From Neisseria sp. (GTDB lineage: Bacteria > Pseudomonadota > Gammaproteobacteria > Burkholderiales > Neisseriaceae): a stretch of DNA of 34,339 bases. The stretch lies in contig NZ_JAUNHL010000020.1 in NCBI RefSeq assembly GCF_030523955.1, positions 9,860 through 44,198 of the forward strand, in the 5' to 3' direction. Both the position numbers and the translations under genes were made by a program. This document shows positions 2,062-34,339 of the stretch, in pieces (positions within the stretch are counted from its first letter, which is position 1; the number at the start of each line of letters is the position of its first letter). The notes under the pieces were generated by a model that was not told the DNA's origin, did no database searches, and saw nothing but the letters and a program-made list of their open reading frames with translations.

Positions 2062-3000
<939 letters not shown>

Positions 3001-3020
3001 AGTCTTAGAGCAATAAATGT

Positions 3021-3046
3021 ACCCGGGCTTTGCCCGGGTATTTTTT
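3021..3046 (+). terminator. Rho-independent terminator after hemF
   Basis: A perfect GC-rich stem, ACCCGGGC / GCCCGGGT with a TTT loop region, is followed by six T residues, 20 bases after the hemF stop codon. Confidence 0.92.
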
Positions 3047-3057
3047 GAGGTTCAGAA

Positions 3058-3136
3058 TGCCTGCCTGAAAGCTTTTACCGTATCGTACAGAGTGAATCAG
3101 CTATAGGGAAGGCTGCTCCGTTTTTTCAGACAGGCA
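3058..3136. repeat. Facing DUS pair with wide spacing between convergent genes
   Basis: A variant TGCCTGCCTGAA (3058-3069) on the plus strand faces an exact TTCAGACAGGCA (3125-3136), 55 bases apart, between the convergent hemF and kinase-like genes. The spacing is too long for a standard terminator stem. The right copy lies just downstream of the kinase-like gene on its strand. Confidence 0.6.
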
Positions 3137-3146
3137 TAGGGCGTTG

Positions 3147-3926
3147 TCAACGGGCTTCAGGGTATTCCGCCAGATAAAACAATTTACCCAATGCGCTGAG
3201 GCGTAAAGTATCGTTGCCCATCCACTTATATTTCAAATGGCGCAGCCATTGTGCGCGGCGGGTGGTTTGTTGCAATTGGCTGCGTATTTCGGCGGGTAGG
3301 CCGGCTTGATGTTGTTGCCAAACGGCGGCGGCTTGGCCAAGGTTTTGCCGGCGGTATATCCACATTGCGGTGGATTGCAGGTAACACAAATAATCGCGGA
3401 CCTGGCACAGCACCAACGGCATATACTTGCCCGGATCATCTTCAAAATCAATGAAGCTGATGGAGCCGTCGTCCGCCCGGATCATATTGCGGGCAAAAGC
3501 TTGGCTCAAGTATTGCTGTTGGGCGTGTACACCGGCTATCGCCGCCAAGCCTTCTTGCCATATGCCGACCTGATCGTCGTCATTTTCCACTTCGCTTAAA
3601 ATGGTGTCGCTGCCCACGTTACTGAACATCAAGGCACTATCGCTTTTCGCCAACAGTTGGGGTACCTTGACGCCGGAAGCCGCCAAGTCGCGCAGGCGGT
3701 GCGCTTCGATGGCCAGCGAGGCCCGCCCGCCCGGATTGGGAACCGGTTGCAATGCACCCAGCCGCAAGCCGGAAGCGATTCCGCCGAGCAGCTTGTAGCG
3801 CCATTCTGGCACGGTTTTGCCGACTTTGCGTATCCATACTTTTTCGCCGTTGGATAGCGTATGGGCGGCGATGGTTTCGGCTTGCGACGGTGCCAGTTCG
3901 GCCAAAGCTTGTGTGTAAAACGTCAT
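3147..3926 (-). CDS. Kinase-like protein (Bud32/RIO/Kdo-kinase-type fold), function unknown
   Basis: A 259-aa protein of a family widespread in Betaproteobacteria and usually labelled serine/threonine protein kinase; no substrate is known to me. Visible kinase-like elements are a basic N-lobe segment with Lys34 and Lys37, a possible helix-C Glu near 74 (SLAIEAHRL), a catalytic-loop-like stretch with His134 and ARNMI (145-149), and IDFEDDP (159-165) in the place of the metal-binding DFG. There is no signal peptide or clear membrane segment. The ATG at 3926 follows a GGAAA Shine-Dalgarno at suitable spacing. Monocistronic by layout, with repeats on both sides. Kinase activity is inferred from fold motifs only. 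Confidence 0.7.
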   Translation of the reverse strand: MTFYTQALAELAPSQAETIAAHTLSNGEKVWIRKVGKTVPEWRYKLLGGIASGLRLGALQPVPNPGGRASLAIEAHRLRDLAASGVKVPQLLAKSDSALMFSNVGSDTILSEVENDDDQVGIWQEGLAAIAGVHAQQQYLSQAFARNMIRADDGSISFIDFEDDPGKYMPLVLCQVRDYLCYLQSTAMWIYRRQNLGQAAAVWQQHQAGLPAEIRSQLQQTTRRAQWLRHLKYKWMGNDTLRLSALGKLFYLAEYPEAR

Positions 3927-8855: not shown

Positions 8856-8867
8856 TTCAGACAGGCA
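8856..8867 (-). other. DUS abutting the start codon of the phosphoglycosyltransferase gene
   Basis: Exact TGCCTGTCTGAA on the minus strand, ending one base before the ATG. There is no purine-rich Shine-Dalgarno, so the uptake word occupies the usual binding site. Confidence 0.8.
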
Positions 8868-8951
8868 TAATGTGTTGGTAAAAGCGGATATTTGATTTGT
8901 TATCGTTGCATTGTTTGTGTTTTGTGAAACACGGATACGCTTATGATTTTA

Positions 8952-9770
8952 TCATGGTTTGGTTTTTTTCTGTCCTTCGAGAGAGCGTAAACAGCGGCGG
9001 TTGAGTGATTTGCGGCCATTATCCAACAACCAGCCCCATTTATTGAAATAACGGATGGCGGATTGAATGTGGATGTTGCGCAGCTTGGGATTGGCATAGG
9101 AAGCTTGTTGGTGCTCATGCACGATTACGCAGTCCGGCAGATAACAGTTGCCGAAGCGTTCGGCACAGCGGCGGGATAAGTCGATATCTTCCAAATACAT
9201 AAAATAGCGCTCGTCGAAACCGCCTAATGCCAATAAAGCGGAGGATTTGAACAGCATAAAACTGCCGGATAAAAAAGGGATAAAACTCGGTTGGGTGATA
9301 TCGTAATCTGATAACATAAAACGGCGGTCCAGACGCTCGGCAAGCGATGGCAGAAAACGGCGGGCAAACAAATCCAACGGGCTGGGTAGCAAGCGCCGGC
9401 CATATTGGTCGCGACCATCGGGATAAACCACTTTGGGGGCAAATAGGCCTTCCGGGCGCTGTAATGCTTCGTGGATCAAGGTTTCGTAATCGGCGGTTTC
9501 AAAGCGGATGTCAGGATTGCAAATCAGGAATAAATCGCTTTCTTGTGCATAGCGTCGGATGGCAAGATTATGCCCGTAGCCGAAACCACCGTTGAGGGGA
9601 GCGGCAAGGTATTCGATTCGGGGGTTGTTTAGTTCAGCGGCCCAGCAGCAGCCACCGTTGTCGACTAGGATGATTTTATTGGTTAACGGGCTGGTAAGCA
9701 GGCTATCCAGCGTAGCTTGGATGTCTTGCTGTTGATGCTGGTAGAGGACGATGGAGGTAATGAGGTTCAT
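8952..9770 (-). CDS. Family 2 glycosyltransferase, rhamnosyltransferase-like
   Basis: A cytoplasmic GT-A-fold enzyme of 272 aa that adds a sugar to a lipid-linked glycan. The start (MNLITSIVLYQHQ) is the usual GT2 beta strand; LVDNGG (35-40) carries the first nucleotide-binding Asp, NGGFGYGHNLAI (60-71) is typical of WbbL-like rhamnosyltransferases, NPDIRF (85-90) holds the metal-binding motif, and FMYLEDIDLSRR (near 195-206) the ED acceptor-side motif. With rmlD in the same operon, dTDP-rhamnose is a reasonable donor, but this is inference. Its start overlaps the stop of the preceding glycosyltransferase gene (ATGA). Confidence 0.88.
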   Translation of the reverse strand: MNLITSIVLYQHQQQDIQATLDSLLTSPLTNKIILVDNGGCCWAAELNNPRIEYLAAPLNGGFGYGHNLAIRRYAQESDLFLICNPDIRFETADYETLIHEALQRPEGLFAPKVVYPDGRDQYGRRLLPSPLDLFARRFLPSLAERLDRRFMLSDYDITQPSFIPFLSGSFMLFKSSALLALGGFDERYFMYLEDIDLSRRCAERFGNCYLPDCVIVHEHQQASYANPKLRNIHIQSAIRYFNKWGWLLDNGRKSLNRRCLRSLEGQKKTKP

Positions 9771-10804
9771 ACGGTTTTAACCGGGCCGTTTTCAGATAAC
9801 AAGTCGATCAGCTCGGTGAGCCTATTTTCTACTTTGGCATGTGAGGCTGGTAGTTCTTTCATCATGGCAGTTTCAATGGCAGTGGCGATGGAATCAACAT
9901 CCATGGGATCAAAAGTGAGCGAGGGCGTGCAGATGGCATGAGTATAGGGTAAATCCGCACCAATAATTTTACAGCCTAAGGAGATGCCTTCTACCAAGCC
10001 CAATCCAAAGCTTTCTGCCAAGGAGGGAAAAATAATATATTGTGCAGCTTGGTAGCGTCGGGTGAGTTCTTCTCGGCCGACAAAGCCGATGTTCTCGATG
10101 GGATAACCTTGGGCTTGCGCTCGAGTGATAGCAACCAATATTTTGGGGTAATCTTGATTGACGGTTACGATCAGTTTGCCTTTTTGAGTGCGGTTATAAA
10201 CACGGCAGAAGGCTTGTATCAGGCGGATATGGTTTTTATTGTCTTGCGCGTTGCTGACATACAAAAAAGTATCGGCTTGCCGTTCAATGTCACTAAATGG
10301 AAGTAACTCAGGAAAAAATGGCAGAATTTCGATTTTTTCGGCTTGGCCGAAGGTGTCGGTAAATTGAGCCTGCAAAGTCGGCGACTGCACCAGCCACCGA
10401 TCGGTATTGGGGCTGCTGTGGCGGATAATGGCAACTTTCAGGCGAAATTTGAGCTTTTCCACCAGGCTGAAATCCGGCGGTACACTGATGTACATAGGAT
10501 TGTGGAAATAAGTATAGGTTTCGGCTGTTTGACGGGTGAGTGGCGGGATATTGCCCAATACAAATACTTTGGAAAATAAATGTTGGTGTTGGCGGTAAAA
10601 GCGATAGCGTGACCACAAAGGAAGAGCGGTAGACAAATAGATGGCGCGATTGGAAGATTTTATTGAATAAGGTTTGTGCGCCAGGCGTTGATCGAATAAA
10701 TAAAATACCGGAATATCGGTTTTTTCCAGATTGGTTACCAGATAATCCAGCAGAATTTTTCCACCGCCGTTGTGTATGTAAAGAGCATCAATCAGTATCA
10801 TCAT
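9767..10804 (-). CDS. Family 4-type glycosyltransferase
   Basis: A GT-B-fold transferase of about 346 aa. The N-terminal MILIDALYIHNGGGKILLDYL resembles the first strand and Gly-rich acceptor loop. The C-terminal half has the glycosyltransferases-group-1 pattern: FLYVSNAQDNKNHIRLIQAF, GFVGREELTRRYQAAQYIIFPSLAESFGLGLVEGISLG with the E-x7-E element, then IIGADLPYTHAICTPSLTFDP. The open frame extends to 10912, but those 36 codons would overlap the flippase gene by 32 bases and lack family-like sequence, so the start is placed at the double ATG at 10801-10804. No clear Shine-Dalgarno at either. It is coupled to the GT2 gene by a four-base overlap. Confidence 0.85.
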   Translation of the reverse strand: MMILIDALYIHNGGGKILLDYLVTNLEKTDIPVFYLFDQRLAHKPYSIKSSNRAIYLSTALPLWSRYRFYRQHQHLFSKVFVLGNIPPLTRQTAETYTYFHNPMYISVPPDFSLVEKLKFRLKVAIIRHSSPNTDRWLVQSPTLQAQFTDTFGQAEKIEILPFFPELLPFSDIERQADTFLYVSNAQDNKNHIRLIQAFCRVYNRTQKGKLIVTVNQDYPKILVAITRAQAQGYPIENIGFVGREELTRRYQAAQYIIFPSLAESFGLGLVEGISLGCKIIGADLPYTHAICTPSLTFDPMDVDSIATAIETAMMKELPASHAKVENRLTELIDLLSENGPVKTV

Positions 10805-10880
10805 ATTAGTGTTGTTTTCAGGGTAAGAGACAAACCGCTTAAGTGCGAAACCGAGGAGTTTGTTTGAAATAAGATAAGGT

Positions 10881-12392
10881 TTACTCGGTTTGATAAATTG
10901 TCCGGTAAACATAGCGGTTCAGCAAGCGGAATAATGGCAAAAACAGCAAAGCAGCAGCCAGAGCGCACAGTGCAGCGAAGCTCAGCCATACGATATAGCT
11001 GTGAATCGTGTAATGAGCCAGATAAGTGTTTAAGCCGTAGGCAAAGAGAACAGCGATTGTACACACGGTTAAATATTTTATCAGTGATAAAGTGAGAGGT
11101 AAGTTTAAAATATGTTGGTGAATGTAGCTGTTAATTTCCATAAAACGCCAGCCAAACACGATTAGTGAGGCGGTAACGACTCCCTGTAGGCCGAAGAAGT
11201 AAGCGGCAACGCCGGTGATGCTAATGTGTAGACCCGCTTCCAGCAGGTAACGGTTGCGGGTGGCTTTGAAGTGTCCGGCGGCTTGAATTAGGCTTTCGCC
11301 CGGTAGGCGCAGGCAGTCGGCTAAAGAGGCCAGCAGAAAAATAAAGGCAAACACCGGTTGGTAATATTCGGCATCGGTCATGTTACGGGTGTATAAGTCG
11401 ATAAAAGGCATCAGCAAAGCGCTGGTGCAGCCAAATACACCGGCAGCGGCAATCAAAAACAAGGTGTCGTAACGATGGTAATGGTATCGGACTACTTGGG
11501 TGCTTTGTTCGGCTAGGAGCTTGCCAAATACGGCCTGGGTGCCATTGGAGATAGATTGCAACAACATTTTCAATGCGGCAAAAACCAGATAGTAAATGGC
11601 ATAAATACTGGCATCTTTCAGGCTGCAAAATAACACGATATAGGCAATAGGAGCACCGTAAACAGCCAGTAGGCAAAGCTGCTGGACAAAGGCTTCCCGT
11701 TTTTGTGTGATGTGGGTGGAGCTGCCGGGTGAGGGAATGTCGGCTGGGAACTTGAGGTTGCGGTAAGCGTAGCGGATGTAGCAGTAAACGAGCGTGATGC
11801 GGATCAGTGTGGCGGCAATCAGGCTGTATTGAGCGGTTAAGACATCGTGGTTGTGGATGATTAGCCAATAGGCGATGGCGACATTAATGAGGGTCGCAAC
11901 CGATTGGATGAGGGAGTAAACATAAGTTTTCTGGTCGGCAACCAATAGCACACGGTAGGTGCCGATAAAGAAGAAATCTGCAAGGCTGGTGATACCCAAT
12001 ATCAGGATAATCTGAAACGCCAGCAGACTATCGATCTGGGTGCGGGTAACCCAAGAATAGGAGGCGGCCAGTATCAATAAACCCGCGATAAACAGGGTGC
12101 CGGAGAGTCGGTAGAGCTTACGGGTTTCGCCCAATATCCGGTTGCGGTGTAATAGGTCTTTATCTGCCAGCGGCTGATACAGTGCGGCAATGCTGGCCGC
12201 ACCTATACCGGCCTCCACAATGCTGAGGTAAAAGATAAAATGTTTGGACGAAGCTAAAAAGCCATTAACGGTTGAACCGTAATGGCTGATAATCAGAGGC
12301 GGTAGGATGAAGCCACTAACGACCGTAACGATTTGCCAGAGCAAATGTGATGAGAAGTTTTTGATAAAAGTGGCTTTAGCCGTGCTCAGCAT
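10881..12392 (-). CDS. Lipid-linked oligosaccharide flippase, Wzx/PST-like
   Basis: A 503-aa polytopic inner-membrane protein with about 12-14 hydrophobic helices, consistent with the polysaccharide-transporter family that flips undecaprenyl-linked repeat units to the periplasm. The N-terminal pattern (FIKNFSSHLLWQIVTVVSGFILPPLIISHYG, about 10-40) and the Gly-containing second helix are typical. Wzx proteins share little sequence, so the call rests on topology, size and its place between rmlD and two glycosyltransferases. It begins 12 bases after the rmlD stop. No Wzy polymerase or Wzz is present in the window. Confidence 0.85.
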   Translation of the reverse strand: MLSTAKATFIKNFSSHLLWQIVTVVSGFILPPLIISHYGSTVNGFLASSKHFIFYLSIVEAGIGAASIAALYQPLADKDLLHRNRILGETRKLYRLSGTLFIAGLLILAASYSWVTRTQIDSLLAFQIILILGITSLADFFFIGTYRVLLVADQKTYVYSLIQSVATLINVAIAYWLIIHNHDVLTAQYSLIAATLIRITLVYCYIRYAYRNLKFPADIPSPGSSTHITQKREAFVQQLCLLAVYGAPIAYIVLFCSLKDASIYAIYYLVFAALKMLLQSISNGTQAVFGKLLAEQSTQVVRYHYHRYDTLFLIAAAGVFGCTSALLMPFIDLYTRNMTDAEYYQPVFAFIFLLASLADCLRLPGESLIQAAGHFKATRNRYLLEAGLHISITGVAAYFFGLQGVVTASLIVFGWRFMEINSYIHQHILNLPLTLSLIKYLTVCTIAVLFAYGLNTYLAHYTIHSYIVWLSFAALCALAAALLFLPLFRLLNRYVYRTIYQTE

Positions 12393-12404
12393 ACAATTGT
12401 TGTC

Positions 12405-13262
12405 TTACAGTTTCGGGATAATCTGTCCCAAAGCTGCCTGCCAATCGGATACCTTAATGCCGTGCGATTTGATTTTGTCGCAGCTCATCACGCTGTAAGG
12501 CGGGCGGCTGGCCGGAGTGGGGTAGGCGCTGGTGGCGATGCCGTTGGTAACGGGTACCGGGAAAGCGGGATCTTTTTGCTGGGCAGTTTGGAAAATCGCA
12601 CGGGCAAAATCGCACCAGCTCACGGTTTTGTCGCCGCAGTAATGGTAAAGGCCGGTCGGGAAGGTGGGCAGTTGCAGGGCATCGATGATGGCTTGTGCCA
12701 AATCGCCGGCGTAAGTGGGGTTGCCGATTTGGTCGTCTACCACACCTAAGGTGTCGCGCTCTTTGGCTAGGCGCAGCATGGTTTTGACGAAATTGTTGCC
12801 GTATTCGGAGAATACCCAAGAAGTGCGGATAACCATGCTGTTGGGATTGGCAGACAAGGCCAATAATTCGCCGGCGAGCTTGGATTTGCCGTATATGCCG
12901 GTGGGCTCGGGTGCGTCTTTTTCGCTATAGGGATTTTTGGCGTGGCCGCTGAATACATAATCGGTGGAGACATGTACGAACTTGGCGGCAACGGCTTGTG
13001 CGGCGACGGCCAGATTGCGGGTGCCGTCGGCGTTGACGGCAAACGCTTTGTCGTGATCGCTTTCGGCTTTGTCGACAGCGGTATAGGCGGCGGCATTAAC
13101 GACGGCATCGGGTTGGAAGTTTTTCACCATATTCAAAACAGCGGCTTCATCGGTGATGTCCAGCGTTTGCGAGTCGGTGGCAATCAGCTCCCAGTTTTCA
13201 GGCAGGCGGTCTTTAAAACATTGACCCAATTGGCCTTTGGCACCGGTCAGCAGAATTCTCAT
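12405..13262 (-). CDS. rfbD: dTDP-4-dehydrorhamnose reductase
   Basis: Last step of dTDP-L-rhamnose synthesis (also called rmlD), reducing dTDP-6-deoxy-L-lyxo-4-hexulose with NAD(P)H. The 285-aa length is standard. The cofactor loop GAKGQLG (7-13), VNAAAYTAVDKAE (55-67), HVSTDYVFSG (97-106) and the catalytic YGKSK with Tyr124 and Lys128 are all present. An AAGGAT Shine-Dalgarno precedes the ATG. It heads the glycan operon. rmlA, rmlB and rmlC are not in the window. Its product can serve both this operon and EarP at 23,296-24,468. Confidence 0.96.
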   Translation of the reverse strand: MRILLTGAKGQLGQCFKDRLPENWELIATDSQTLDITDEAAVLNMVKNFQPDAVVNAAAYTAVDKAESDHDKAFAVNADGTRNLAVAAQAVAAKFVHVSTDYVFSGHAKNPYSEKDAPEPTGIYGKSKLAGELLALSANPNSMVIRTSWVFSEYGNNFVKTMLRLAKERDTLGVVDDQIGNPTYAGDLAQAIIDALQLPTFPTGLYHYCGDKTVSWCDFARAIFQTAQQKDPAFPVPVTNGIATSAYPTPASRPPYSVMSCDKIKSHGIKVSDWQAALGQIIPKL

Positions 13263-13329
13263 TGTGTTATCCTTTTTAATTGGTTTTTGCTTTGGCTGGT
13301 ATTGTAAAGCGATACGCTGAAAAAATACA

Positions 13330-13411
13330 GTAACCGTTTGGCGAAAATAGGTGCACAGTAGGGTTTGTTGTTTATATACTCATGTTTTTGAGGGTGCAAC
13401 CAAGCGGTTAC
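13330..13411. repeat. Dispersed inverted repeat in the rfbD-lemA divergent spacer
   Basis: GTAACCGTTTGG (13330-13341) and CCAAGCGGTTAC (13400-13411) are inverted copies with one mismatch, separated by 58 bases. The spacer between holds a plausible lemA promoter. It could be a pair of operator half-sites or coincidence. Confidence 0.35.
13352..13380 (+). promoter_or_regulatory. Candidate sigma-70 promoter for lemA operon
   Basis: TGCACA (13352-13357, four of six to consensus) and TATACT (13375-13380, five of six) are 17 bp apart, about 95 bases before the lemA ATG. Predicted by eye only. Confidence 0.35.
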
Positions 13412-13475
13412 TTTGGTGTCTGATTGTGTTGCGTACTATTTTCAAGCAGATAAATAATCAAAGGGAGTGGGTAAT

Positions 13476-14066
13476 ATGTTGAAAAAATGGTTGATGGCAG
13501 CAACGGTGGCGCTTTCGTTGTTTTCTTTGAGCGGCTGCGGTTACAACACCATGCAAACGCAGGACGAGGCGGCCAATGCGGCTTGGTCGGAAGTGTTAAA
13601 CCAATATCAGCGGCGTGCGGATTTGATTCCGAATTTGGTGAATACGGTAAAAGGCTATGCTTCTCACGAGGAAAAAGTGTTAACCGAGGTAACCGAGGCG
13701 CGCAGCAAGGTGGGCAGTATCCAGATGACGGCAGAGGACGCGGCCAATCCTGAAAAGCTCAAGCAATACGGCGAGGCGCAAGGCGAATTGAGCAGCGCTT
13801 TGTCGCGCTTATTGGTAGTAACGGAAAATTACCCGCAATTGAAAGCCGATCAGAACTTCCGCGATTTGCAGGCGCAGTTGGAGGGTACGGAAAACCGGGT
13901 GACTTTGGCGCGCAACAACTACATTAAAGCGGTGCAGACTTACAACACCACTTTACGCCAGTTCCCGCAGAACATCACCGCTAAGGTTTTCGGCATGGAG
14001 GCGCGGCCTCAGTTTACGGTTGAAAACGAGAAGGCGGTTTCTACTGCGCCTAAGGTTGAGTTTTAA
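13476..14066 (+). CDS. lemA: LemA family protein, predicted lipoprotein
   Basis: A 196-aa member of the LemA family, an envelope-anchored helical-bundle protein whose role is not settled. The ATG at 13476 has an AGGGAG Shine-Dalgarno eight bases upstream; a GTG three codons earlier lies inside that site and is not used here. The N-terminus (KK, a hydrophobic stretch, then LSGC) is a lipoprotein signal with lipidation at Cys21, where most LemA proteins have a plain membrane helix. Family motifs DEAANAAWSEVLNQYQRRADLIPNLVNTVKGYA and NYPQLKADQNFRDLQAQLEGTEN are split here by position: roughly residues 28-60 and 114-136. Two TPM-domain genes follow, a common partnership. Confidence 0.94.
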   Translation: MLKKWLMAATVALSLFSLSGCGYNTMQTQDEAANAAWSEVLNQYQRRADLIPNLVNTVKGYASHEEKVLTEVTEARSKVGSIQMTAEDAANPEKLKQYGEAQGELSSALSRLLVVTENYPQLKADQNFRDLQAQLEGTENRVTLARNNYIKAVQTYNTTLRQFPQNITAKVFGMEARPQFTVENEKAVSTAPKVEF

Positions 14067-14072
14067 TCCGCT

Positions 14073-14113
14073 TTTCAGACAGGCATGGAGGCGCAAACCA
14101 TGCCTGTCTGAAA
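14073..14113. repeat. DUS inverted repeat inside the lemA operon
   Basis: Exact DUS copies at 14074-14085 (minus) and 14101-14112 (plus) form a 16-bp perfect stem with a nine-base loop, between lemA and the first TPM gene. There is no T run, so it may attenuate or process the transcript. Confidence 0.85.
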
Positions 14114-19539: not shown

Positions 19540-19584
19540 GCGGTATCAATAAATTCAGGATGAAAACCGTTTGTTGTAAAGATC

Positions 19585-19692
19585 TATAGCAGATTTAATT
19601 AATTTTCGATACAAGGCAGCAAGCCGCAGACAGTACAAGTAGTACGGCAAGGCGCAGCAACGCCGTAGCGAAAGTTAAGTTAATCTGCTATA
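19585..19692. mobile_element. Correia repeat enclosed element, short form
   Basis: 108 bp bounded by TATAGCAGATT and AATCTGCTATA. It contains CAAGGCAGCAAGCCGCAGAC and the block pairing with GTACAAGTAGTACGG. In reverse complement it differs from the copy at 27859-27967 at only about four positions. The size matches the internally deleted Correia form. Confidence 0.85.
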
Positions 19693-24993: not shown

Positions 24994-27783
24994 ATGACTT
25001 CCCATATCGATTCGCAATTTGCCAAAGAAACCCTCCCCATCAGCCTTGAAGAAGAAATGCGCAGAAGCTACCTCGATTACGCCATGAGCGTGATTGTGGG
25101 GCGCGCGCTGCCGGATGTGCGCGACGGCTTGAAGCCCGTGCACCGCCGCGTTTTGTACGCGATGCACGAGCTGAAAAACAACTGGAACAGCGCTTATAAA
25201 AAGTCTGCCCGTATCGTCGGCGACGTCATCGGTAAATACCACCCGCACGGCGATTCTGCGGTTTACGACACCATCGTGCGCATGGCGCAGGATTTCTCGA
25301 TGCGCTATGTGTTGGTCGACGGCCAGGGCAACTTCGGCTCGGTTGACGGCGACGGCGCGGCGGCGATGCGTTACACCGAAATCCGCATGGCGAAAATCGC
25401 CCACGAAATGCTGGCCGACATCGAAGAAGAAACCGTTAACTTCGGCCCCAACTACGACGGCAGCGAAAGCGAGCCGCTGGTGTTGCCCACCCGTTTCCCC
25501 GCCTTGTTGGTTAACGGCTCTTCCGGCATCGCCGTGGGCATGGCCACCAATATTCCGCCGCACAACCTGCCCGACACCATCGATGCCTGCCTGAAACTCT
25601 TGGCCGAGCCGCAAACCGAGATCGACGAACTCATCAACATCATCAAAGCCCCCGATTTCCCCACCGGCGCCACCATCTACGGCTTGGGCGGCGTGCGCGA
25701 AGGTTATAAAACCGGCCGCGGCCGCGTGGTGATGCGCGGCAAAACCCACATCGAGCCTATCGGCAAAAACGGCGAGCGCGAAGCCATCATCATCGACGAA
25801 ATCCCCTATCAGGTGAACAAAGCCCGCCTGGTGGAAAAAATCGGCGAACTGGTGCGCGACAAGGTGTTGGAAGGCATTTCCGACCTGCGCGACGAATCCG
25901 ACAAATCGGGCATGCGCGTCGTGATCGAGCTCAAGCGCAACGAAAACGCCGAAGTGGTGCTCAACCAGCTCTACAAACTCACCCAGCTGCAAGACAGCTT
26001 CGGCATCAATATGGTGGCCTTGGTCGATGGCCAGCCGCGCCTGTTGAACCTGAAGCAGATTTTGAGCGAATTTCTGCGCCACCGTCGCGAAGTCGTTACC
26101 CGCCGCACCCTGTTCCGTCTGAAAAAAGCGCGCCACGAAGGCCATATCGCCGAAGGCAAAGCGGTGGCCCTGTCGAACATCGACGAGATGATTCAGCTCA
26201 TCAAAGAATCCGCCGATGCGCCCGAAGCCAAAGAGAAACTGCTGTCGCGCCCGTGGCAGTCGGGCTTGGTGGGCGAAATGCTCTCCCGCACCGATTTGGA
26301 TATGCAGATGGCGCGCCCCGAAGGCTTGCCCGCAGGCTTGGGTTTGCAGGCGGGCGGCTATTTTCTGAGCGACATTCAGGCCGACGCCATTTTGCGCATG
26401 AGCCTGCGCAACCTCACCGGCCTCGACCAAGACACCATCGTGGCCGACTACAAAACCATCATGGGGCAGATTATTGATTTTCTGGATATTTTAGCCAAGC
26501 CCGAGCGCATCACCGCCATCATTCACGAAGAACTGGAAGAAATCAAAACTAACTTCGGCGACGAACGCCGCAGCGAAATCAACCCGTTCGGCGGCGATAT
26601 TGCCGACGAAGACCTGATTCCGCCGCGCGAAATGGTGGTGACGCTCACCCACGGCGGCTACATCAAAACCCAGCCCACCACCGATTATCAGGCGCAGCGC
26701 CGCGGCGGTCGCGGCAAACAGGCCGCCGCCACCAAAGACGAAGACTTTATCGAAACCCTGTTTGTGGCCAACACCCACGATTACCTGATGTGTTTCACCA
26801 ATTTCGGCAAATGCCACTGGATTAAAGTGTACAAACTGCCCGAAGGCGGGCGTAACAGCCGCGGCCGCCCGATTAACAACGTCATCCAATTGGACGAAGG
26901 CGAAAAGGTAAGCGCCATCATGGCCGTGCGCGAGTTCCCCGAAGACGAATACGTATTCTTCGCCACCGCGCAGGGCATGGTGAAAAAAGTGCAGCTTTCC
27001 GCCTTCAAAAACGTGCGCGCGCAAGGCATCAAGGCCATCGCCCTCAAAGACGGCGATTCGCTGGTGGGGGTGGCGAAAACCTCCGGCACCAGCGATATCA
27101 TGCTGTTTTCCAACCTCGGCAAAGCCATCCGCTTTAACGAATATTACGAGCGCAACGGCGAGGCCGACGATTTGGAAAACGAAGATTCAGACGGCCTCGA
27201 TACGGAAGCCGAAACCGAACACGACGAAACGGACGGCGCCGATGCGCCCGTGCTGAAAGGCAACGGCGTGCGTCCGTCCGGCCGAGGCAGCGGCGGCCTG
27301 CGCGGTATGCGCCTGCCCAAAGGCGGCCGCATCGTCAGCCTGCTGGTTTCCGCGCCCGACAACACCGAGCAACAGGTGCTCACCGCCACGCAAAACGGCT
27401 ACGGCAAACGCACGCCGATTGAAGATTACAGCCGCAAAGGCAAAGGCGGGCAGGGCATCATCGCCATCGACACCGGCGAGCGCAACGGCGAATTGGTGGC
27501 CGCAACTTTGGTTAACGAAAGCGACGATTTGATGCTGATTACCAGCGGCGGCGTGTTAATCCGCACCAAAGTCGAGCAAATCCGCGAAACCGGCCGCGCC
27601 GCCCAAGGCGTGCGCCTGATTAACCTCGACGAAGGCGAAACGCTGGTGAGCCTAGAGCGGATTGCCGAGCCGGAAGAAGACGAAGACGTGCCGGCAGCAG
27701 GCGAAGGCGCGGAAAACGATGGTGAAAACGCCGAAACCGAATCTGCCGCCGAAGATGCTGCCGGTGATGACGGGCAAGCGTAA
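24994..27783 (+). CDS. gyrA: DNA gyrase subunit A
   Basis: Breakage-reunion subunit of DNA gyrase, 929 aa, which with GyrB introduces negative supercoils. Catalytic Tyr127 ([11 protein letters not shown]), the quinolone region [13 protein letters not shown] with Ser88 and Asp92 (equivalent to gonococcal Ser91 and Asp95, both the susceptible residues), and the GyrA box QRRGGRG are visible. The C-terminal beta-pinwheel carries an acidic insertion (about 719-755) before [16 protein letters not shown], and an acidic tail; both occur in neisserial GyrA. The frame is open from 24895, but [26 protein letters not shown] is the family start, so 24994 is chosen. It ends in a hairpin of another DUS dialect. 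Confidence 0.97.
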
Positions 27784-27805
27784 GCGGTAAGCGGCAGTGA
27801 TAATC

Positions 27806-27840
27806 AAGGCCGTCTGAAAAATAAGTTTTCAGACGGCCTT
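27806..27840. terminator. gyrA terminator made of canonical-type DUS (AGGCCGTCTGAA)
   Basis: AAGGCCGTCTGAAAA (27806-27820) pairs with its exact reverse complement (27826-27840) around a five-base loop, 23 bases after the gyrA stop. The word is the AG-DUS of N. meningitidis/N. gonorrhoeae relatives, unlike the TG-type words in the rest of the window. Confidence 0.88.
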
Positions 27841-27858
27841 GTTGTGTCGATAACGATA

Positions 27859-27967
27859 TATAGCGGATTAACTTAACTTTTCGCTACGGCGTTGCTGCGC
27901 CTTGCCGTACTACTTGTACTGTCTGCGGCTTGCTGCCTTGTATCGAAAATTAATTTAATCTGCTATA
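27859..27967. mobile_element. Correia repeat enclosed element, short form
   Basis: 109 bp with termini TATAGCGGATT and AATCTGCTATA and the core CTACGGCGTTGCTGCGCC and GTACTGTCTGCGGCTTGC, nearly identical to the inverted copy at 19585-19692. It lies between the gyrA terminator and the IS fragment at the left border of the foreign block. Confidence 0.87.
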
Positions 27968-28022
27968 GCTATAGGCATCAGGATAACGCTCAAAATCCTC
28001 GAGTTGCGGGTTTCCGGTTGTT

Positions 28023-28169
28023 TCAGAGAGGCTTAGGGGCCGGAGGGCGTGTCCAAAGCGTGAGGGTGGAGATGGCGGTGCCGAATTTTTTTTGCCGTTC
28101 TGCAAATCGTCCACACTTGACGGAGTTTTTGAGTACGAGTTGTTTGAGGTCTCCTGAATAGGCTATAGT
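28023..28169 (-). pseudogene. Fragment resembling the N-terminus of an IS630-type transposase
   Basis: On the minus strand the frame reads IAYSGDLKQLVLKNSVKCGR followed by FAERQKKFGTAISTLTLW, then stops. This fits the helix-turn-helix start of IS630-family transposases (MAYSxDLRxxVLxFxxxGxxxxEAxxxFGIxxSTLYxW). The initiating ATG reads ATA and only about 47 codons remain. No terminal repeats or second half are seen. The family call is by pattern and modest. Confidence 0.4.
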
Positions 28170-28261
28170 GGGACTGTATCTAACAGTTTGTTTATTCTCT
28201 ATATGGCCTGTAAATCGTTTGGATTGACAATCGTAGGGGACAACAGCTGCCCCGGCTACGC

Positions 28262-29275
28262 CTATTTCAATTTTGAATATTCTTCGTCCGATACTGGCTC
28301 TAGCCATTCGTTGCTGGTGTTTTCACCGTCAACTGCCACAGCTAAGTGTTGAAGCCACGAATTTTTCGCTGCTCCGTGCCAGTGTTTGACGTTAGCTGGA
28401 ATGTTTACTACGTCGCCTGGTTTCAACTCTTGGGCTGGTTTGCCCCATTCTTGATAGTAGCCTCGCCCTGCGGTTACGATGAGAATTTGACCTCCACCTT
28501 TGGTAGCGTGATGAATGTGCCAATTGTTGCGAACCGTTGGTTCAAAGGTAACATTGTTAATTTTTACTTGCTCATTAGAGATAGGGGCAAGATAACTTTG
28601 TCCAGAGAAGTATTGGGCATAGGCATCATTTGATTGACCAAGTGGGAATTGGCTTAATTGTGGGGGAATGATTTTCTCAATTTGAGCCAGTTGTTCATCG
28701 GTTAATCCATTCTTTTTGCTGATTGCTTTGTGAGCATTAAGCTGACTTTCCGCTCCTTTAAGCTGGCTTAATGCTCCGACGGTTACAATTTCACGCTCTT
28801 GCCAGTTGAGTAAATCACTGGCAAAAATATCGCCAAATAGATGCGTTTTCAAATAACGGTCAATATCAGACGAAAGAGCAGAAAGATCAACCGGACGTCC
28901 GGTAAGATCGGTTTGTGTTTTGGTGCCAAGAGCCAGAATATCCGTATTGGTTGGCAATGCAGTAGCTACTTTGCCGTCAGTATCTTTCACGCCTTTTGCT
29001 TGACGTTCTTTTACTGTTTCAGCAAGCGTATTTAATGCATTTAAACTGCGCGGAAAGCCGGCGTAAGCATAAAGTTGCACCATCGCATCTTTAATTTCGT
29101 TAATGGTTAAATCGTTGTCTAACGCTTCTGCAACGGCGATTTTTAACGCTGAAATATCACCTGTGGCGGTAAGCGCCCCGATTTTTGCCAAGCTTTGTTG
29201 TTTTGCTGTAAGTTGCATTTGTTTATTCTCCATTTTTGTTATTTGAATCGTTGTATTTGCCGCTTGAACGAGCAC
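28262..29275 (-). CDS. Carboxymuconolactone-decarboxylase-like/cupin fusion protein
   Basis: Two AhpD/CMD-like helical domains (about 25-100 and 140-205) and a C-terminal cupin (about 240-320). The CMD domains (NEIKDAMVQLYAYAGFPRSL; LLNWQEREIVTVGALSQLKG) lack the CxxC of AhpD peroxidases. The cupin keeps HIHH and a late His (PANVKHWHG), with Gln in place of the usual motif-1 Glu. The frame begins at GTG 29275; ATG at 29218 (MQLTAKQQ) has the best Shine-Dalgarno (GGAG, eight bases). In-frame sequence upstream of 29275 reads VAVILTALSSAVLVQAAN, a signal-peptide core, with no usable start. Homologues I recall are exported. Activity unknown; base composition and uptake words indicate a Pasteurellaceae source. 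Confidence 0.82.
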   Translation of the reverse strand: MLVQAANTTIQITKMENKQMQLTAKQQSLAKIGALTATGDISALKIAVAEALDNDLTINEIKDAMVQLYAYAGFPRSLNALNTLAETVKERQAKGVKDTDGKVATALPTNTDILALGTKTQTDLTGRPVDLSALSSDIDRYLKTHLFGDIFASDLLNWQEREIVTVGALSQLKGAESQLNAHKAISKKNGLTDEQLAQIEKIIPPQLSQFPLGQSNDAYAQYFSGQSYLAPISNEQVKINNVTFEPTVRNNWHIHHATKGGGQILIVTAGRGYYQEWGKPAQELKPGDVVNIPANVKHWHGAAKNSWLQHLAVAVDGENTSNEWLEPVSDEEYSKLK

Positions 29276-29284
29276 TGCACTGGA

Positions 29285-29293
29285 AAGTGCGGT
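29285..29293 (+). other. Haemophilus-type DNA uptake signal
   Basis: AAGTGCGGT followed by TAAAATAA, matching the extended Hin-type uptake signal (9-mer core, then n-R and an A/T tract). It lies within the signal-peptide-like leader of the CMD/cupin gene. Confidence 0.85.
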
Positions 29294-29368
29294 TAAAATA
29301 ACGGCAACTTTATGTCGATTTTCGTTTTGACACCGTATTTCGCTTTTTATAAGCAGTTTTTTCTTGTA

Positions 29369-30117
29369 TTACCAAGGTTGAGCAGTTGGTCCAATCGTAA
29401 ATTCACTGATGTTTGTATCTTCCGGTTGCTTCAACGCAAATGCCACTACGTTTGCCACACGTTCGGCTGGGATTTCATAGGTATCATAAAGCTGGCGATA
29501 GCCTGCTGACGTTGAATTATCGGTAATGTGATCCACTAATTCAGATTGTACTGCAGCAGGATAAATCGTTGCGGTGCGGATATTTGTTCCTGCTTGTGCA
29601 CTTTCTATTCGTAACCCTTCCATAATCGCCTTCACCGCCCATTTAGTGCCGCAGTATACTGTGCCACCGGGGTACACTTTTAAGCCGGCAACCGATGAAG
29701 TTGCTAAAATATGCCCTGTTTTTTGTGCTTCAAAAGTCGGTAACACGGCAGCAATACCGTTTAATACACCTTTGATATTGACATCAATCATCGCATTCCA
29801 GTTATTGGTTTCTAGGGCTGAAAGCGGTGAGCTCGGCATTAAACCGGCATTTAAGAAAATCGCATCCACACGTCTAAATGCGGATTTGGCTAATTCGACT
29901 AATGCCGTGTTATCTTCAGGTTTAGTCACATCGGTTGAACGGAAGACAGCTTCACCACCTTTCGCTTTGATGTTGTTTGCAATCGACTTTAATTTATCTT
30001 CCCGGCGTGCCGCTACACTAACTTCGCACCTTGTTCAGCTAATTTATATGCAGCTGCTTCACCAATGCCTGAAGAGGCACCTGTAATAATCACGACTTTG
30101 TTTTGAATGTTGTTCAT
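29369..30117 (-). pseudogene. Short-chain dehydrogenase/reductase, frameshifted
   Basis: An NAD(P)-dependent SDR of about 249 aa if repaired. The ATG at 30117 opens MNNIQNKVVIITGASSGIGEAAAYKLAEQGAKLV with the cofactor motif TGASSGIG, then meets TAG. Restoring one base near 30015 (GTGTAGCGG read as GTGTTAGCGG) continues into LAARREDKLKS and the long frame with NAG (FLNAGLMP), the catalytic SSVAGLKVYPGGTVYCGTKWAVK (Ser, Tyr-x3-Lys) and the C-terminus SEFTIGPTAQPW. The family is the classical YdfG-like SDR. No other frameshift occurs in the neisserial part of the window, which favours real decay over sequencing error. Intact homologue substrate unknown. Confidence 0.88.
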
Positions 30118-30256
30118 CAGTTTTTCCTTTTGCTTGTTGTGAAAGATTGTTTTAACCGATAGGTTATTCTGGTTTTCCTAAATAATGTTGCGATTGTAGT
30201 CTTATCTTAATTTCAAGATAAAATAATTTAAGAATACTCAACTGCTAAAAATAGCA

Positions 30257-31417
30257 TTATTGATGTCGAGATTTTAAGATAACAATCAACCAAGTTATTC
30301 CCACTAAAACGGCATAGCCAGTGGTAATTTCAACTAAATTTAAACCGCTTGCCAATTTGCCAACAATAAGGTTCGGAACGGCAGCACCCGCATAACCGAT
30401 AATATAAATGAGGGAGAGAATACCGGCTCGTTCTTCTAATGTTGCGCTACTTAGTAGGCTTTTAATACTTGCGGCATAAGCCAGACCAAACGTTAAACTA
30501 GCAAGGACGATAATACCTAATACAGCAAAAACAGAACTTTGAGCGAGTGCAAGCACTAAGCCGATGGTGCTTAAGAAAAATCCTGTCATTCCTATTTTTT
30601 GCCCTGAAGATTGGGAGATTTTGCCGGAGAGCACGCTACCGAAGAACGCAGGAATTTGGAATGCTGCAAAGACGGTTGAGCCTACAAGAACGCTAGTTGA
30701 ATGTAATTGATCTCGTGCTATTGGGGCGGAAAATGTTTGAAAAAATCCACCAATTGCCCAAGTGCCTATAAACACGGCGGCGGCTGCCGGCAAAAAGTGA
30801 CGTAAACGTTCAGGTAAACCAATGTTGGGCACGAGAGAAATAACCGCATTTTTAACCGCACTTTTCTGCCAACCAATGGTTTCTTTTCCCAATAAAACGA
30901 GCATTGCCGCAATGACAGCAAAACCGAATGCAACCCAATAAATCGCCGTAAGTGAGCCGGTTGTTTCTACAATAAAACCAGAACCCAACGAACCGAGTGA
31001 AAGCCCAATCATTGGAGTGGTGCTCACGGCGATTGTTCCTAGTTTAGGGGAGGCAAGATCCACAACATAAGCCGCTGCCGCACTGGATGCTAATCCACAA
31101 GATAGCCCCTGCACAAACCGAGCAAAATAAAAATCGGTTACGGAGTTAAGGGTAATAAACTCAATAACGCCGAGTATGGATAAAATCAGAGCAACAATCA
31201 CCACAGGCTTACGCCCAAATTGGTTTGATAATCGGGCTAGAAATAGCAGAGCAAAGACTGTTCCTACAAAATAGCAAACAGACGAAAAAGATAAATCGGC
31301 ATTATTCAGCAATAATGTTTGACGATATACCGAATAAAGCGGAATCGGTGCAGCAGATGCGAAAAACACAAGCCCGAATGTACTAATCGCCCCGAATAAT
31401 CCAAGTTTTGATTTCAA
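30257..31417 (-). CDS. MFS transporter, drug/metabolite exporter type
   Basis: A 386-aa major facilitator with about 12 helices. The loop 2-3 motif GRKPVVI (RLSNQFGRKPVV) and a proline- and glycine-rich fourth to fifth helix region (GLASSAAAAYVVDLASPKLGTIAVSTTPMIGLSLGSLGSG; residues about 110-150) resemble proton-driven efflux proteins. The frame is open to 31489, but this would overlap the hydrolase gene by 52 bases; TTG at 31417 with an AGGA Shine-Dalgarno eight bases upstream begins LKSKLGLFGAISTFGLVFF, so that start is taken. It is the only undamaged gene of the cassette. A Haemophilus-type uptake word lies inside it. Substrate unknown. Confidence 0.85.
   Translation of the reverse strand: MKSKLGLFGAISTFGLVFFASAAPIPLYSVYRQTLLLNNADLSFSSVCYFVGTVFALLFLARLSNQFGRKPVVIVALILSILGVIEFITLNSVTDFYFARFVQGLSCGLASSAAAAYVVDLASPKLGTIAVSTTPMIGLSLGSLGSGFIVETTGSLTAIYWVAFGFAVIAAMLVLLGKETIGWQKSAVKNAVISLVPNIGLPERLRHFLPAAAAVFIGTWAIGGFFQTFSAPIARDQLHSTSVLVGSTVFAAFQIPAFFGSVLSGKISQSSGQKIGMTGFFLSTIGLVLALAQSSVFAVLGIIVLASLTFGLAYAASIKSLLSSATLEERAGILSLIYIIGYAGAAVPNLIVGKLASGLNLVEITTGYAVLVGITWLIVILKSRHQ
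30855..30863 (-). other. Haemophilus-type DNA uptake signal in the MFS gene
   Basis: Reverse complement reads AAGTGCGGT followed by TAAAAAT, again matching the extended Hin-type consensus. A one-mismatch copy (AAATGCGGT) follows immediately. Confidence 0.85.
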
Positions 31418-31437
31418 TTTATTTATCCTAAAATGTA

Positions 31438-32466
31438 TTACTTCGTTACGCTGAGATGCTGATTGAAGAACGAAGTGAATTTTTCCCAAGGAATCATTTC
31501 GGTTCTATCGTATAAATCGATGCGGTTCGCTCCATCTACTACGACTAATTCTTTTGGTTGGGCCGCACGTTGGAAGGCGGTTTCTGTGAAACTTCTCGAC
31601 GGTGCAATTTCTCCCACCACAAACAAAATCGGACGCGGCGAAATAATATCCAAGTCATTGAAAGGATAGAAATTTAAGAATTTAGCATAGGTGGCTGGTG
31701 TCGTACGGCGATCGTTGCTTGCTACTTTGCCTCGTTCGGTTTGATAGAAATCTGCAGATTCCTTCGCTTCTAAAAAGACTTTGTCATTTTGACCCGGGCC
31801 ATAAACAGGGCTGCCTGTTTTTGCCGCTTGCGTACGGAATTTCGCTGCAATGTCTAGATCGTTTTTAACGATAGCTCTATCGCGATTACCTCTTAACCCT
31901 GTGCGAAAATATTCGCCCATATCATACATACTAGAAGTCGCCACGGCTTTAATTCGAGGGTCAATTTTAGCTGCTGCTAATGAGAAAGCTCCGCTGGCAC
32001 ATACGCCAATAATGCCGATATTGTCAGCATCAACAAAGTTTTACGTTGTAAGATAATCCACTGCAGCACTGAAATTTTCAGAGTACACATCCGGTAGCAC
32101 CGCTCCACGTGGTTCACCGGTACTTTCGCCCCAAAAAGATTGATCGAAAGTGAGTGTAATAAAACCAGCATCCGCCATTTTTTGTGCGTATAAATTTGCT
32201 GATTGTTGTCTGACTGCGGCAAACGGATGGCCAACGATAATAGCTGGATATTTTTTATCACTCTGCATATTTTTAGGCGTGAATAACGTACCTGCTAATT
32301 CCATATCATAAGCATTTTTAAAATGTACTGTTTTGCTGTTAAGCTGCTGGCTGACATAAAAATTATTCGCACCACGGGACATATCCGCAGCTTGTATGGA
32401 GAGAGATGTGCATAATGCTGTCGCTAAAGCGGTCATTAAAGCAATTTTTTTGGTTGTGTTAGCCAT
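31438..32466 (-). pseudogene. Exported alpha/beta hydrolase, interrupted by an in-frame stop
   Basis: Reading from ATG 32466: a signal peptide (MANTTKKIALMTALATALCT..SIQA, cleavage near 27), then an alpha/beta hydrolase with HPFAAVRQQS, TFDQSFWGES and, beyond the stop, the nucleophile elbow IIGVCASGAFSLAA (Cys in the place of Ser, as in dienelactone-hydrolase relatives) and VVDGANRIDLYD near the end. Codon 142 is TAA (32043-32041), after YLTT; the same frame continues with NFVDADNIG and stays open for 200 codons to 31438. So a single nonsense change, not a frameshift, splits it. Repaired length 342 aa. The truncated product would lack the nucleophile. Cassette neighbours are the cyclophilin-like gene (50 bases upstream) and MFS gene. 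Confidence 0.88.
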
Positions 32467-32516
32467 TTTTGTATCCTTAATTAACGTTTAGATTAATTTT
32501 TCATTATTGGTGATGG

Positions 32517-32870
32517 TTATTTTGCGCTAAATGTTGCTTCAATATTTTCCATTTCACCCAAAGCAGAGATATCTTGATCGATACGTCCTAACTGTTGACG
32601 TTCAAAAGTATCGCCATCTTGTTTGTATAAAATGACCAAACTGCCGCGAGGGGGCCAATAAATTAAATCCCCAACAGAAAAATGATCACTACGCAGTTTC
32701 TCGGTTGGTAATGCCCCCGCTCCCAGACGATGTACCAATTCCCGACCGTATAAATTTTGCATTTTTACAGTAAAAGGCATTTTGGCAATCAGTGCGCGAC
32801 TGGCTGCGTTATTTTCCATTGTGGCAGTAAATGTTTGATTATTAACAGTGATGTTGATTTGTTGTGCCAT
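32517..32870 (-). CDS. Cyclophilin-like fold protein
   Basis: A 117-aa protein of the cyclophilin-like family related to TM1367 (INITVNNQTFTATMENNAASRALIAKMPFTVKMQNLYGRELVHRL, residues about 5-49, then GDLIYWPPRGSLVILYKQ and LGRIDQDISAL). Peptidyl-prolyl isomerase activity is not implied; the role is unknown. ATG at 32870 has a GGAGGG Shine-Dalgarno eight bases upstream. In-frame upstream codons encode FKAHLLLFTTLLCSNISTNAQ, a signal-peptide-like leader, preceded by ATA instead of ATG with AGGA six bases before it. The ancestral protein was therefore probably exported and this copy may now make only a cytoplasmic form. Confidence 0.78.
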   Translation of the reverse strand: MAQQINITVNNQTFTATMENNAASRALIAKMPFTVKMQNLYGRELVHRLGAGALPTEKLRSDHFSVGDLIYWPPRGSLVILYKQDGDTFERQQLGRIDQDISALGEMENIEATFSAK

Positions 32871-33158
32871 ACTATTGCCCTCCGAAAAAGTAGTTTGTGC
32901 ATTTGTTGATATATTGCTGCACAATAATGTAGTAAAAAGTAATAAATGAGCTTTAAATATAAATGTTCCTAAATAAGAGTAAGAAAAAAAACGTTGTTTG
33001 CTATGTGGATTATTTTAGATCGAGTGTTATTTTATGTCTAATGATTATATTTTATATAATTTTATGCATTTATAACATGGATTTGAGCAATCTGTATTTC
33101 AATTCAGGCGTAAAAATACAGTTGTGATCAAAGTAGAGGGAAATTGGAAGAGCGGGTA
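32871..33158 (-). promoter_or_regulatory. AT-rich control region between lysR and the cassette genes
   Basis: This 288-base stretch holds no intact gene apart from the leader described for the cyclophilin-like gene. A perfect -10 word TATAAT is present on the minus strand (33049-33044), without a convincing -35. It would be the natural place for the LysR-regulated promoter, but I cannot assign an operator. Confidence 0.35.
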
Positions 33159-34029
33159 TTAGAGCTGTTCTTTCACAAATTGCAAAAATTTTGCTGCTGT
33201 ACTAGAACTCTTATGCGTTTTCTTCCAAGCGAGAACAGAAGTCATCACAAGTTCAGGCTGAAGTGCTCGGAAAGTCAGGCGTGAGTGATCGAGAAGTACG
33301 GTAGCCCCTTCAATAGTTAATGCGCTGGCATAGTTTCTAGCAACAAGTGTGGTAATGTGGTTGATGAGGTTGTAAGGTAGCAACGATGTTCAGCTCAACG
33401 TTATCCGCCTGTAGCCAATGCTCCAGCTCTTTTTGTAGTGCGTAGCGGTTACTTGTGATGAGTGGTAAAGCATTCAGATCTTGCGGCGTGATATAAGTTT
33501 TTTCTGCCAACGGATTTTCAGACGACATCAGCAACCCCCAACGCTCTTGCGTGTTAAAACGCAGATAGTCGTAGCGATTGATTTCCACAGGTTCAAGCAA
33601 CACGCCGAAATCGAGCAGCCCAGTATCGAGTTTCTCTTTAATATCGTCAGCCATCGCACTGAAAAATTGAAATTCCACCTGCGGATATTGGCGTTGGAAG
33701 GTTTCGCAGTAACCCAGCATTTGTTGAGACGCTATTAGCCCTCCCATACCAATACTGATAATGCCGCTTACCGTATACCCACCCGTGAATTCGACTTTGA
33801 TTTTCTCTACCATTTCCACAACTTCTGTGGCCCGTTTGCTTAATGTTACGCCAGCATCGGTTAGCCTTAATCGCTTGCCGCGTTCAAATAATTGCACTCC
33901 TAGCTCTTCTTCTAGCTGAGCTATCCGGCGACTTAGGGCAGGTTGAGAAATGAAAGCAGTTTCTGCTGCACGAGAGATGTTTTCTTCACGTACTATGGCA
34001 AGAAAATAGCGTAATGTTTGGATATCCAC
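33159..34029 (-). pseudogene. LysR-family regulator, frameshifted
   Basis: Starts at GTG 34029 after AAGGGG. The N-terminal winged helix-turn-helix (MDIQTLRYFLAIVREENISR, then AAETAFISQPALSRRIAQLEEELGVQLFER) is intact, followed by the effector domain. At about 33373 an extra base (ACCTTACAAC for ACCTACAAC) shifts the frame after ELNIVAT, giving a stop 11 codons later. The second frame resumes with YNLINHITTLVARNYASALT and ends at 33159 (KFLQFVKEQL). Repaired length is 289 aa, normal for the family. The truncated product keeps the DNA-binding domain. It reads in the same direction as the cassette genes rather than divergently. Confidence 0.88.
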
Positions 34030-34244
34030 GAGATCCCCTTAGGAACAATTTTATGGATTTACGAATGACTCGAGACTTGTGCAACGGCTACATAATACCG
34101 AAAAATTGCCTTAAATCAGATTTTTTCTCGTGGATTATGTAGATAAATTGTCAATAAGGTCTAAATTTTCACACCTAACCGTTGTTAATATTCAGTGCGG
34201 GTATGTAGGAATTGATCGAGTTGCTGATGTACCTTGCCTTTTAC
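34030..34244. other. Right border spacer, no gene seen
   Basis: An AT-rich stretch between the lysR start and the stop codon of the next neisserial gene. It contains no uptake word of either type, no clear inverted repeat and no frame worth naming. It includes the junction where neisserial sequence resumes. Confidence 0.4.
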
Positions 34245-34339
34245 TCAAATAACCAGCCATAGCACCACCGGCAGCGTTATCATGGCCAACAAGGTTTGCA
34301 GGCTGATGATGCTGGCCATCAAAGCATGGTTGCCGCCGA
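34245..34339 (-). CDS. C-terminus of an AEC-family (auxin efflux carrier-like) transporter, partial
   Basis: The last 31 codons of a minus-strand gene cut by the window end: GGNHALMASIISLQTLLAM followed by ITLPVVLWLVI and TGA. The hydrophobic final helix with SLQTLLA...TLP is typical of the end of AEC-family permeases. GC content and codon use return to the neisserial pattern. Confidence 0.6.
   Translation of the reverse strand, partial: GGNHALMASIISLQTLLAMITLPVVLWLVI

Follow-up and report, generated by a model that had tools for sequence, protein, structure and literature searches.

We analysed a stretch of 34,339 bp (henceforth the window) that forms the right part of a contig (C47) in the draft genome of a Neisseria species (2,811,455 bases in 107 contigs), and describe here a block of six genes located just downstream of gyrA. 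This block, ~5.9–6.0 kb of DNA running from position 28205 to ~34219, most probably derives from Pasteurellaceae and would have entered this Neisseria lineage after its split from two sister species. Transfer between the two families has good support for part of the block and offers the best interpretation of the whole. Two of the genes, encoding a protein with CMD and cupin domains (CMD-cupin) and a short-chain dehydrogenase (SDR), are placed with Pasteurellaceae, the right edge carries a transposon end, the site is empty in both sister genomes and half of the genes are broken. The original prediction, made from the letters of this DNA, had proposed such a transfer for the interval 28262–34029, with uptake words of the donor still visible; the empty sites, the two gene placements and the transposon end bear it out, but not for all six genes. 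The genes of the block are as follows.

28262–29275, minus strand: CMD-cupin protein (PF02627, PF07883), intact
29369–30117, minus strand: SDR (PF00106) in two reading frames, with a frameshift near 30013–30034
30257–31426, minus strand: major facilitator superfamily (MFS) transporter (PF07690), open frame, start codon uncertain
31438–32466, minus strand: alpha/beta hydrolase (by annotated homologues), with an in-frame TAA at 32038–32040
32517–32870, minus strand: cyclophilin-like fold protein (PF18050, Cyclophil_like2); with an alternative start the open frame extends to 32924
33159–34029, minus strand: LysR regulator (PF00126 and PF03466) in two frames, with a frameshift near 33337–33389

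For the CMD-cupin, a scan of genome contigs confirmed at least 574 relatives, 80 of which were retained, and among these the closest match came from Pasteurella langaaensis (80% amino acid identity); the best full-length match outside Pasteurellaceae and Neisseria reached 54%. Full-length comparisons dropped relatives matching fewer than 250 (CMD-cupin) or 180 (SDR) query residues, including cupin-only matches from gut bacteria at 77–79% that were later examined by halves. The CMD half showed 65–76% identity in Pasteurellaceae versus 49% at best outside Pasteurellaceae and Neisseria, and the cupin half 70–89% in the Pasteurellaceae sequences printed versus at most 79% in gut bacteria (Synergistaceae, Bacteroides, Fibrobacter). 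In a reduced tree the window CMD-cupin formed a clade with 11 Pasteurellaceae and two Neisseria sequences (support 100/99). The fuller tree was less resolved, grouping the window with eight Pasteurellaceae and the two Neisseria sequences (94/98) and leaving three Pasteurellaceae apart. The reduced trees omit 11 distant or long-branch CMD sequences and nine SDR sequences, and one sequence (L227, a duplicate of L003) was left out of all trees.

The SDR gave a similar picture, with 80–87% amino acid identity to 31 Pasteurellaceae sequences, 66% to the best plasmid match among the 25 plasmid records listed, and, in a sample of 369 genomes of the class, 50% to the best match outside genome G041. 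Its tree joined the window to the 31 Pasteurellaceae and one Neisseria sequence (96/87), in agreement with the fuller tree. In the neighbourhoods read, a CMD match at 66% identity or more was present in 12 Pasteurellaceae genomes and lay within ~4 kb of an SDR in ten of them; the 41 neighbourhoods were picked for their matches and are thus a biased sample. Identity and trees together support a Pasteurellaceae ancestry of both the CMD-cupin and the SDR, and gene trees, which the original prediction had put forward as a check, are discordant with the host for these two genes.

The site itself was compared with 46 Neisseria genomes, scoring the best six places in each. The features flanking the six genes are given below.

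24994–27783, plus strand: gyrA, native left flank (NCBIfam gyrA; start codon by eye), GC 0.59, Neisseria-like composition
27805–27841: native AT-DUS (DNA uptake sequence) hairpin 3' of gyrA, an inverted GCCGTCTGAA pair also found in sister genomes G021 and G185
27859–27969: repeat that we take to be Correia-like, 97% identical to window 19584–19692, with similar copies elsewhere in this genome and in other Neisseria
27965–28204: 240-bp remnant of a ~0.88-kb Neisseria repeat, 77–79% identical to 10 copies in four genomes
34077–34100, plus strand: right terminal inverted repeat of an IS1595-type family, 24 bp, its inner side facing the block
34101–34219: 119-bp stretch of low GC outside the right repeat, without a match to the sister site
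34220–34339: native right flank up to the contig end, 93% identical to G021; its part 34225–34339 is 96.5% identical to G185

Over ~2.06 kb of gyrA (25800–27857) the window is 97% identical to the sister species G021 and 95% to G185. This homology breaks off at 27857–27860 and picks up again at 34220–34225, and the right flank matches the sequence just downstream of gyrA in both genomes, where gyrA is followed by a spacer of ~220–255 bp and then by the next gene (in G021 the spacer contains a second AT-DUS hairpin). The true insertion edges are therefore wider than those given before. No other genome among the 46 from Neisseria showed the block in the places scored; given this and the empty site in G021 and G185, the block is, on these alignments, a lineage-specific insertion within this Neisseria sample, and the presence-or-absence check suggested in the original prediction, made here on two sister species, supports a foreign insertion. 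A conserved, vertically inherited Neisseria locus is rejected on the same empty sites, and contamination on the native DNA that flanks the block on both sides within one contig. An assembly artefact or contamination, for which one might cite the 107-contig draft, its contamination estimate of 3.8% and a contig that stops 120 bp into the right flank, is highly improbable when each flank has its match in both sister genomes and the matching places there lie next to each other. On the left, the outer end of the remnant (28204) adjoins the block and the Correia-like element adjoins its other side. Nine of the 10 fetched copies of the parent repeat measure ~0.88 kb, with ends that coincide with the end of the remnant, and this repeat is probably an insertion sequence; a Pfam search of open reading frames in the left-edge repeat led nowhere. 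No tRNA was found, and a tandem-repeat search was equally unproductive.

At the right edge, a search of 140 Pasteurellaceae genomes gave a recurring ~30-bp match at 34077–34107. The 24-bp repeat within it was present with at most one mismatch in 72 of the 140 genomes (a reversed-pattern control gave 0/140) and with at most two mismatches in six of the 46 Neisseria genomes, the present one included. From its sequence, this edge, which had gone unnoticed in the original prediction, is a Pasteurellaceae transposon end. We picked 18 stretches with two facing copies of the repeat (16 from Pasteurellaceae, two from Neisseria): exact 8-bp direct repeats lay just outside 12 of these pairs and a pair with one mismatch outside another, while the remaining five were out of register, two of them reaching 7/8 after a shift. 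All three transposases tested, from two of the larger elements (L184 and L188), carried DDE_Tnp_IS1595 and a zinc ribbon, and nine of ten cargo proteins tested matched PADLOC models of restriction-modification systems.

L171 and L183–L188, all from Pasteurellaceae, are IS1595-type transposons of 6.5–9.4 kb with the 24-bp ends, small accessory genes and restriction-modification cargo; judged by eye, the larger elements often have two transposase genes each. Three ~163-bp copies resembling miniature inverted-repeat transposable elements (L172–L174, in G086) are bounded by these ends as well, and an exact 8-bp duplication accompanies every one of them. A family element with an exact 8-bp duplication also resides in a Neisseria genome, G181 (L176:1038–8562); over 765 bp it shares 98.3% identity with L179, a copy from Pasteurellaceae, which suggests that the family has recently moved between the two groups. 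Two 3.3-kb cassettes from two species (L180, L181) share one small operon, oriented oppositely in the two, between the 24-bp ends; each has an exact 8-bp duplication, and no IS1595-type transposase could be recognized in them by eye. Just outside the intact end of the window there is a degenerate, opposing repeat-like stretch (34134–34164), whose score was equalled in 5 of 2000 shuffles and in 33 of 5328 Pasteurellaceae pieces.

A more specific form of the proposed transfer, and compatible with it, is that a non-autonomous IS1595-type transposon carried the block, moved as a unit and later lost its left end at 28204. This is possible, though less likely than not. The repeat faces the block with its inner side, repeat-bounded cassettes without a recognizable transposase do exist (L180/L181), and a relative with transposase resides in a Neisseria (L176). 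However, no left repeat was found in the window at up to three mismatches (the best candidate in 27701–28400 has 10), nor a target duplication, the right outer 8-mer recurring only within the LysR gene (33662, exact, plus strand). There is no DDE transposase of IS1595 type among the proteins of the block, the block has no match in any of 14 elements compared beyond that end, and the 119 bp outside the repeat, unmatched at the sister site, suggest that donor flank came too.

Transfer from Pasteurellaceae is also indicated by uptake signal sequences (USS). A string search of the whole window for the Hin-type word AAGTGCGGT found exactly two copies, both within the block and at the positions given in the original prediction.

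29285–29293, plus strand: Hin-type USS 1
30855–30863, minus strand: Hin-type USS 2, within the MFS gene

Both read as AAAGTGCGGTTAAAA in context, and a stricter pattern, AAGTGCGGTNNNNNNWWWWWW, matches neither. With the expectation taken from the genome's own rate (20 copies in 2,811,455 bases), the two copies in 28205–34100 compare with 0.042 expected (P of two or more ~9e-4), and one of 300 simulated blocks held at least two, so that Hin-type USS stand above background; the test is weaker over the whole window, where 3 of 100 shuffles reached two or more. A genome rich in AAGTGCGGT is ruled out as an explanation, the 20 copies in 2.8 Mb lying below the 33 of a reversed-pattern control. The Pasteurellaceae neighbourhoods read, ~20 kb each, contain between 2 and 22 copies, a range into which two copies in 6 kb fall. 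One-mismatch words numbered three against a simulated mean of 1.17, a count reached in 28 of 300 simulations, and therefore give no sign of many decayed USS in the block.

Base composition points the same way. GC per kb is 0.38–0.456 at 28–34 kb versus 0.446–0.586 upstream of that, lower as first described although the ranges touch, and the 5-mer composition of all six genes, in a two-class test, is Pasteurellaceae-like (+0.054 to +0.065 log2 odds, against means of 0.055 for Pasteurellaceae and -0.066 for Neisseria). The absence from the block of the TG-wadDUS word (TGCCTGTCTGAA), of which the window has 21 copies, all at positions 1–24889, is likewise as the original prediction had it, but cannot serve as strong evidence: native gyrA also lacks the word and a native stretch of 5.2 kb (8856–14074) has no DUS at all.

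Several results weigh against a Pasteurellaceae origin of the entire block, besides the missing left repeat and target duplication. No MFS match in the 140 Pasteurellaceae genomes exceeded 32%, or 28% over more than 130 residues (the best by E-value was 28%). No full-length match to the C part of the hydrolase in these genomes exceeded 46%, LysR reached at best 44% in the 41 Pasteurellaceae neighbourhoods (beside an SDR in one), and no close relative of the cyclophilin-like protein was present in these neighbourhoods, a sample chosen for its hits, neither of these two genes being searched family-wide. The whole block was found in no genome searched (best two to seven places scored per genome). 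The composition test has two classes and in part reflects GC; among the Neisseria kilobases, the most extreme scored 0.06. A single clade of the window SDR with both Neisseria SDRs was not rejected (p 0.154), and in the cupin-half tree the window and nine Pasteurellaceae fell with 26 gut-bacterial sequences, the other three apart, with weak support. The Pasteurellaceae placement nevertheless stands because the full-length CMD-cupin, the CMD half and the SDR are all placed with this family.

Some of the other genes are better matched on plasmids. For the MFS transporter, a Sinorhizobium plasmid gave 41%, compared with at most 29% (E <= 1e-20) in the sample of 369 genomes of the class, and the C part of the hydrolase reached 48–50% in Paracoccus, Pantoea and Scytonema among the plasmid matches listed; hence not every gene of the block is closest to Pasteurellaceae. 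The cyclophilin-like protein reached 39% at best on plasmids, and LysR ~40% among the records listed, although the tool counts 12 of 1662 in the 60–80% band. Overlapping sets of LysR, MFS, cyclophilin-like, cupin/CMD, SDR or hydrolase genes occur on plasmids of Achromobacter insolitus (NZ_CP026974.1), E. coli (NC_019094.1), Priestia (NZ_CP085434.1), Peribacillus (NZ_CP017081.1) and Scytonema; they differ from the block in order and content, with 28–66% amino acid identity where measured. Given that such sets are found on plasmids across several phyla, the genes of the block suggest a mobile accessory metabolic cluster.

The block could accordingly be a mosaic, in which only the CMD-cupin, the SDR and the transposon end come from Pasteurellaceae and the other four genes from another low-GC source, joined before or after arrival. 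The absence of close Pasteurellaceae relatives of the MFS and hydrolase genes would fit, as would the plasmid gene sets, which imply that these families move and reshuffle. We nonetheless consider a mosaic unlikely: the second USS lies inside the MFS gene, the composition is alike across the six genes, and the transposon end sits beside LysR, far from the CMD-SDR pair, so that Pasteurellaceae marks bracket the four genes. In sum, the attribution of the whole block to Pasteurellaceae made in the original prediction holds for the CMD-cupin and the SDR by trees and identity. All six genes are Pasteurellaceae-like in composition, but the attribution is not supported for all of them, the MFS and hydrolase genes having no close relatives in the 140 Pasteurellaceae genomes.

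Another route would be by way of a second Neisseria that had earlier taken the block from Pasteurellaceae. Pasteurellaceae-like genes are indeed present in the genus, namely a second CMD-cupin in G021 (L225) and on another contig of this genome, C14 (L226, near 2246–3200), and SDRs in G002 (82%) and G014 (78%), and the joint SDR clade was not rejected. Yet the block showed up in no other of the 46 Neisseria genomes at the best six places scored in each, and the Neisseria CMD-cupin pair was placed in a different Pasteurellaceae subgroup from the window copy, a common clade being rejected (p-AU 1.8e-6), which makes this route quite unlikely. Because it nests in that other subgroup, the second CMD-cupin is probably a separate, older transfer.

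Under direct transfer from Pasteurellaceae, the donor would be a member of that family outside the genomes searched, in which all six genes last resided and the cluster lay inside or beside an IS1595-type transposon. Fragments of free DNA may then have been taken up by Neisseria, where USS are no uptake signal, and been joined by non-homologous or repeat-assisted recombination. The block would have come to lie between gyrA and the next gene, replacing the short spacer, and would have brought along an accessory metabolic cluster with a LysR regulator; it is already decaying. We read the USS as donor tags and not as the cause of uptake, since one study reports that USS-bearing DNA gave no significant transformation of N. 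meningitidis (PMC3630211). Neisseria and Pasteurellaceae differ in their uptake words, and the block offers a concrete case for asking how such DNA crosses; it also draws attention to transposons of one family that have, it seems, recently passed between these two groups. As a tentative and rather doubtful extension, the IS1595-type family with 24-bp ends might serve to carry genes from one bacterial family to another, with ends that bracket both restriction-modification cargo and transposase-less cassettes, with the block as one such cassette and the Neisseria members with transposase as helpers. If true, this would be delivery across the uptake-signal barrier that leaves donor USS and one transposon end as tags.

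Neither the type of transfer nor the type of transposon is new, and the block is a new example. Haemophilus-to-Neisseria transfer, with Pasteurellaceae chromosomal genes in Neisseria that kept their USS, was reportedly described by Kroll et al. in 1998; the block shares these features and differs in its genes, its Neisseria species and in having a transposon end on one side. Siguier et al. reportedly described IS1595-family transposons that carry passenger genes in 2009. The pseudo-compound Tn7560 with ISApl4 is an IS1595-type element carrying cargo (PMC12561309); it resembles the intact relatives of the block in its IS1595-type transposase, AT-rich 8-bp duplications and cargo, whereas in the block there is a single end and a transposase is lacking. 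An IS1016-type end was considered for the window and rejected, ISApl4 (IS1016 subfamily) having different ends (14-bp GGGGCTGTACTAGA, against 24-bp CGGTATTATGTAGCNGTTGCACAA in the window family). We found no description of the family with 24-bp ends in the literature, judged mostly from titles, and it may already be described; a narrow literature search on commensal Neisseria and Pasteurellaceae found nothing matching.

As originally noted, all six genes lie on one strand, but three of them are broken, a point that had been passed over: the SDR and LysR genes by frameshifts and the hydrolase by an in-frame stop. These breaks may be sequencing errors. The cluster is probably non-functional now. 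Neither piece of the hydrolase matched Pfam, and a UilS-like model scored far below its cut-off; the similarity of the cupin half to (R)-mandelonitrile lyase scores below the curated cut-off. Judging from its parts alone, the cluster likely once served to transport and break down some small compound, aromatic or reactive.

Near gyrA, AT-DUS words occur at window positions 27186, 27809 and 27828. Over 19.9 kb of contig C14 of the same genome AT-DUS are mixed with TG-wadDUS, 13 against 9, so two DUS dialects coexist in one genome.

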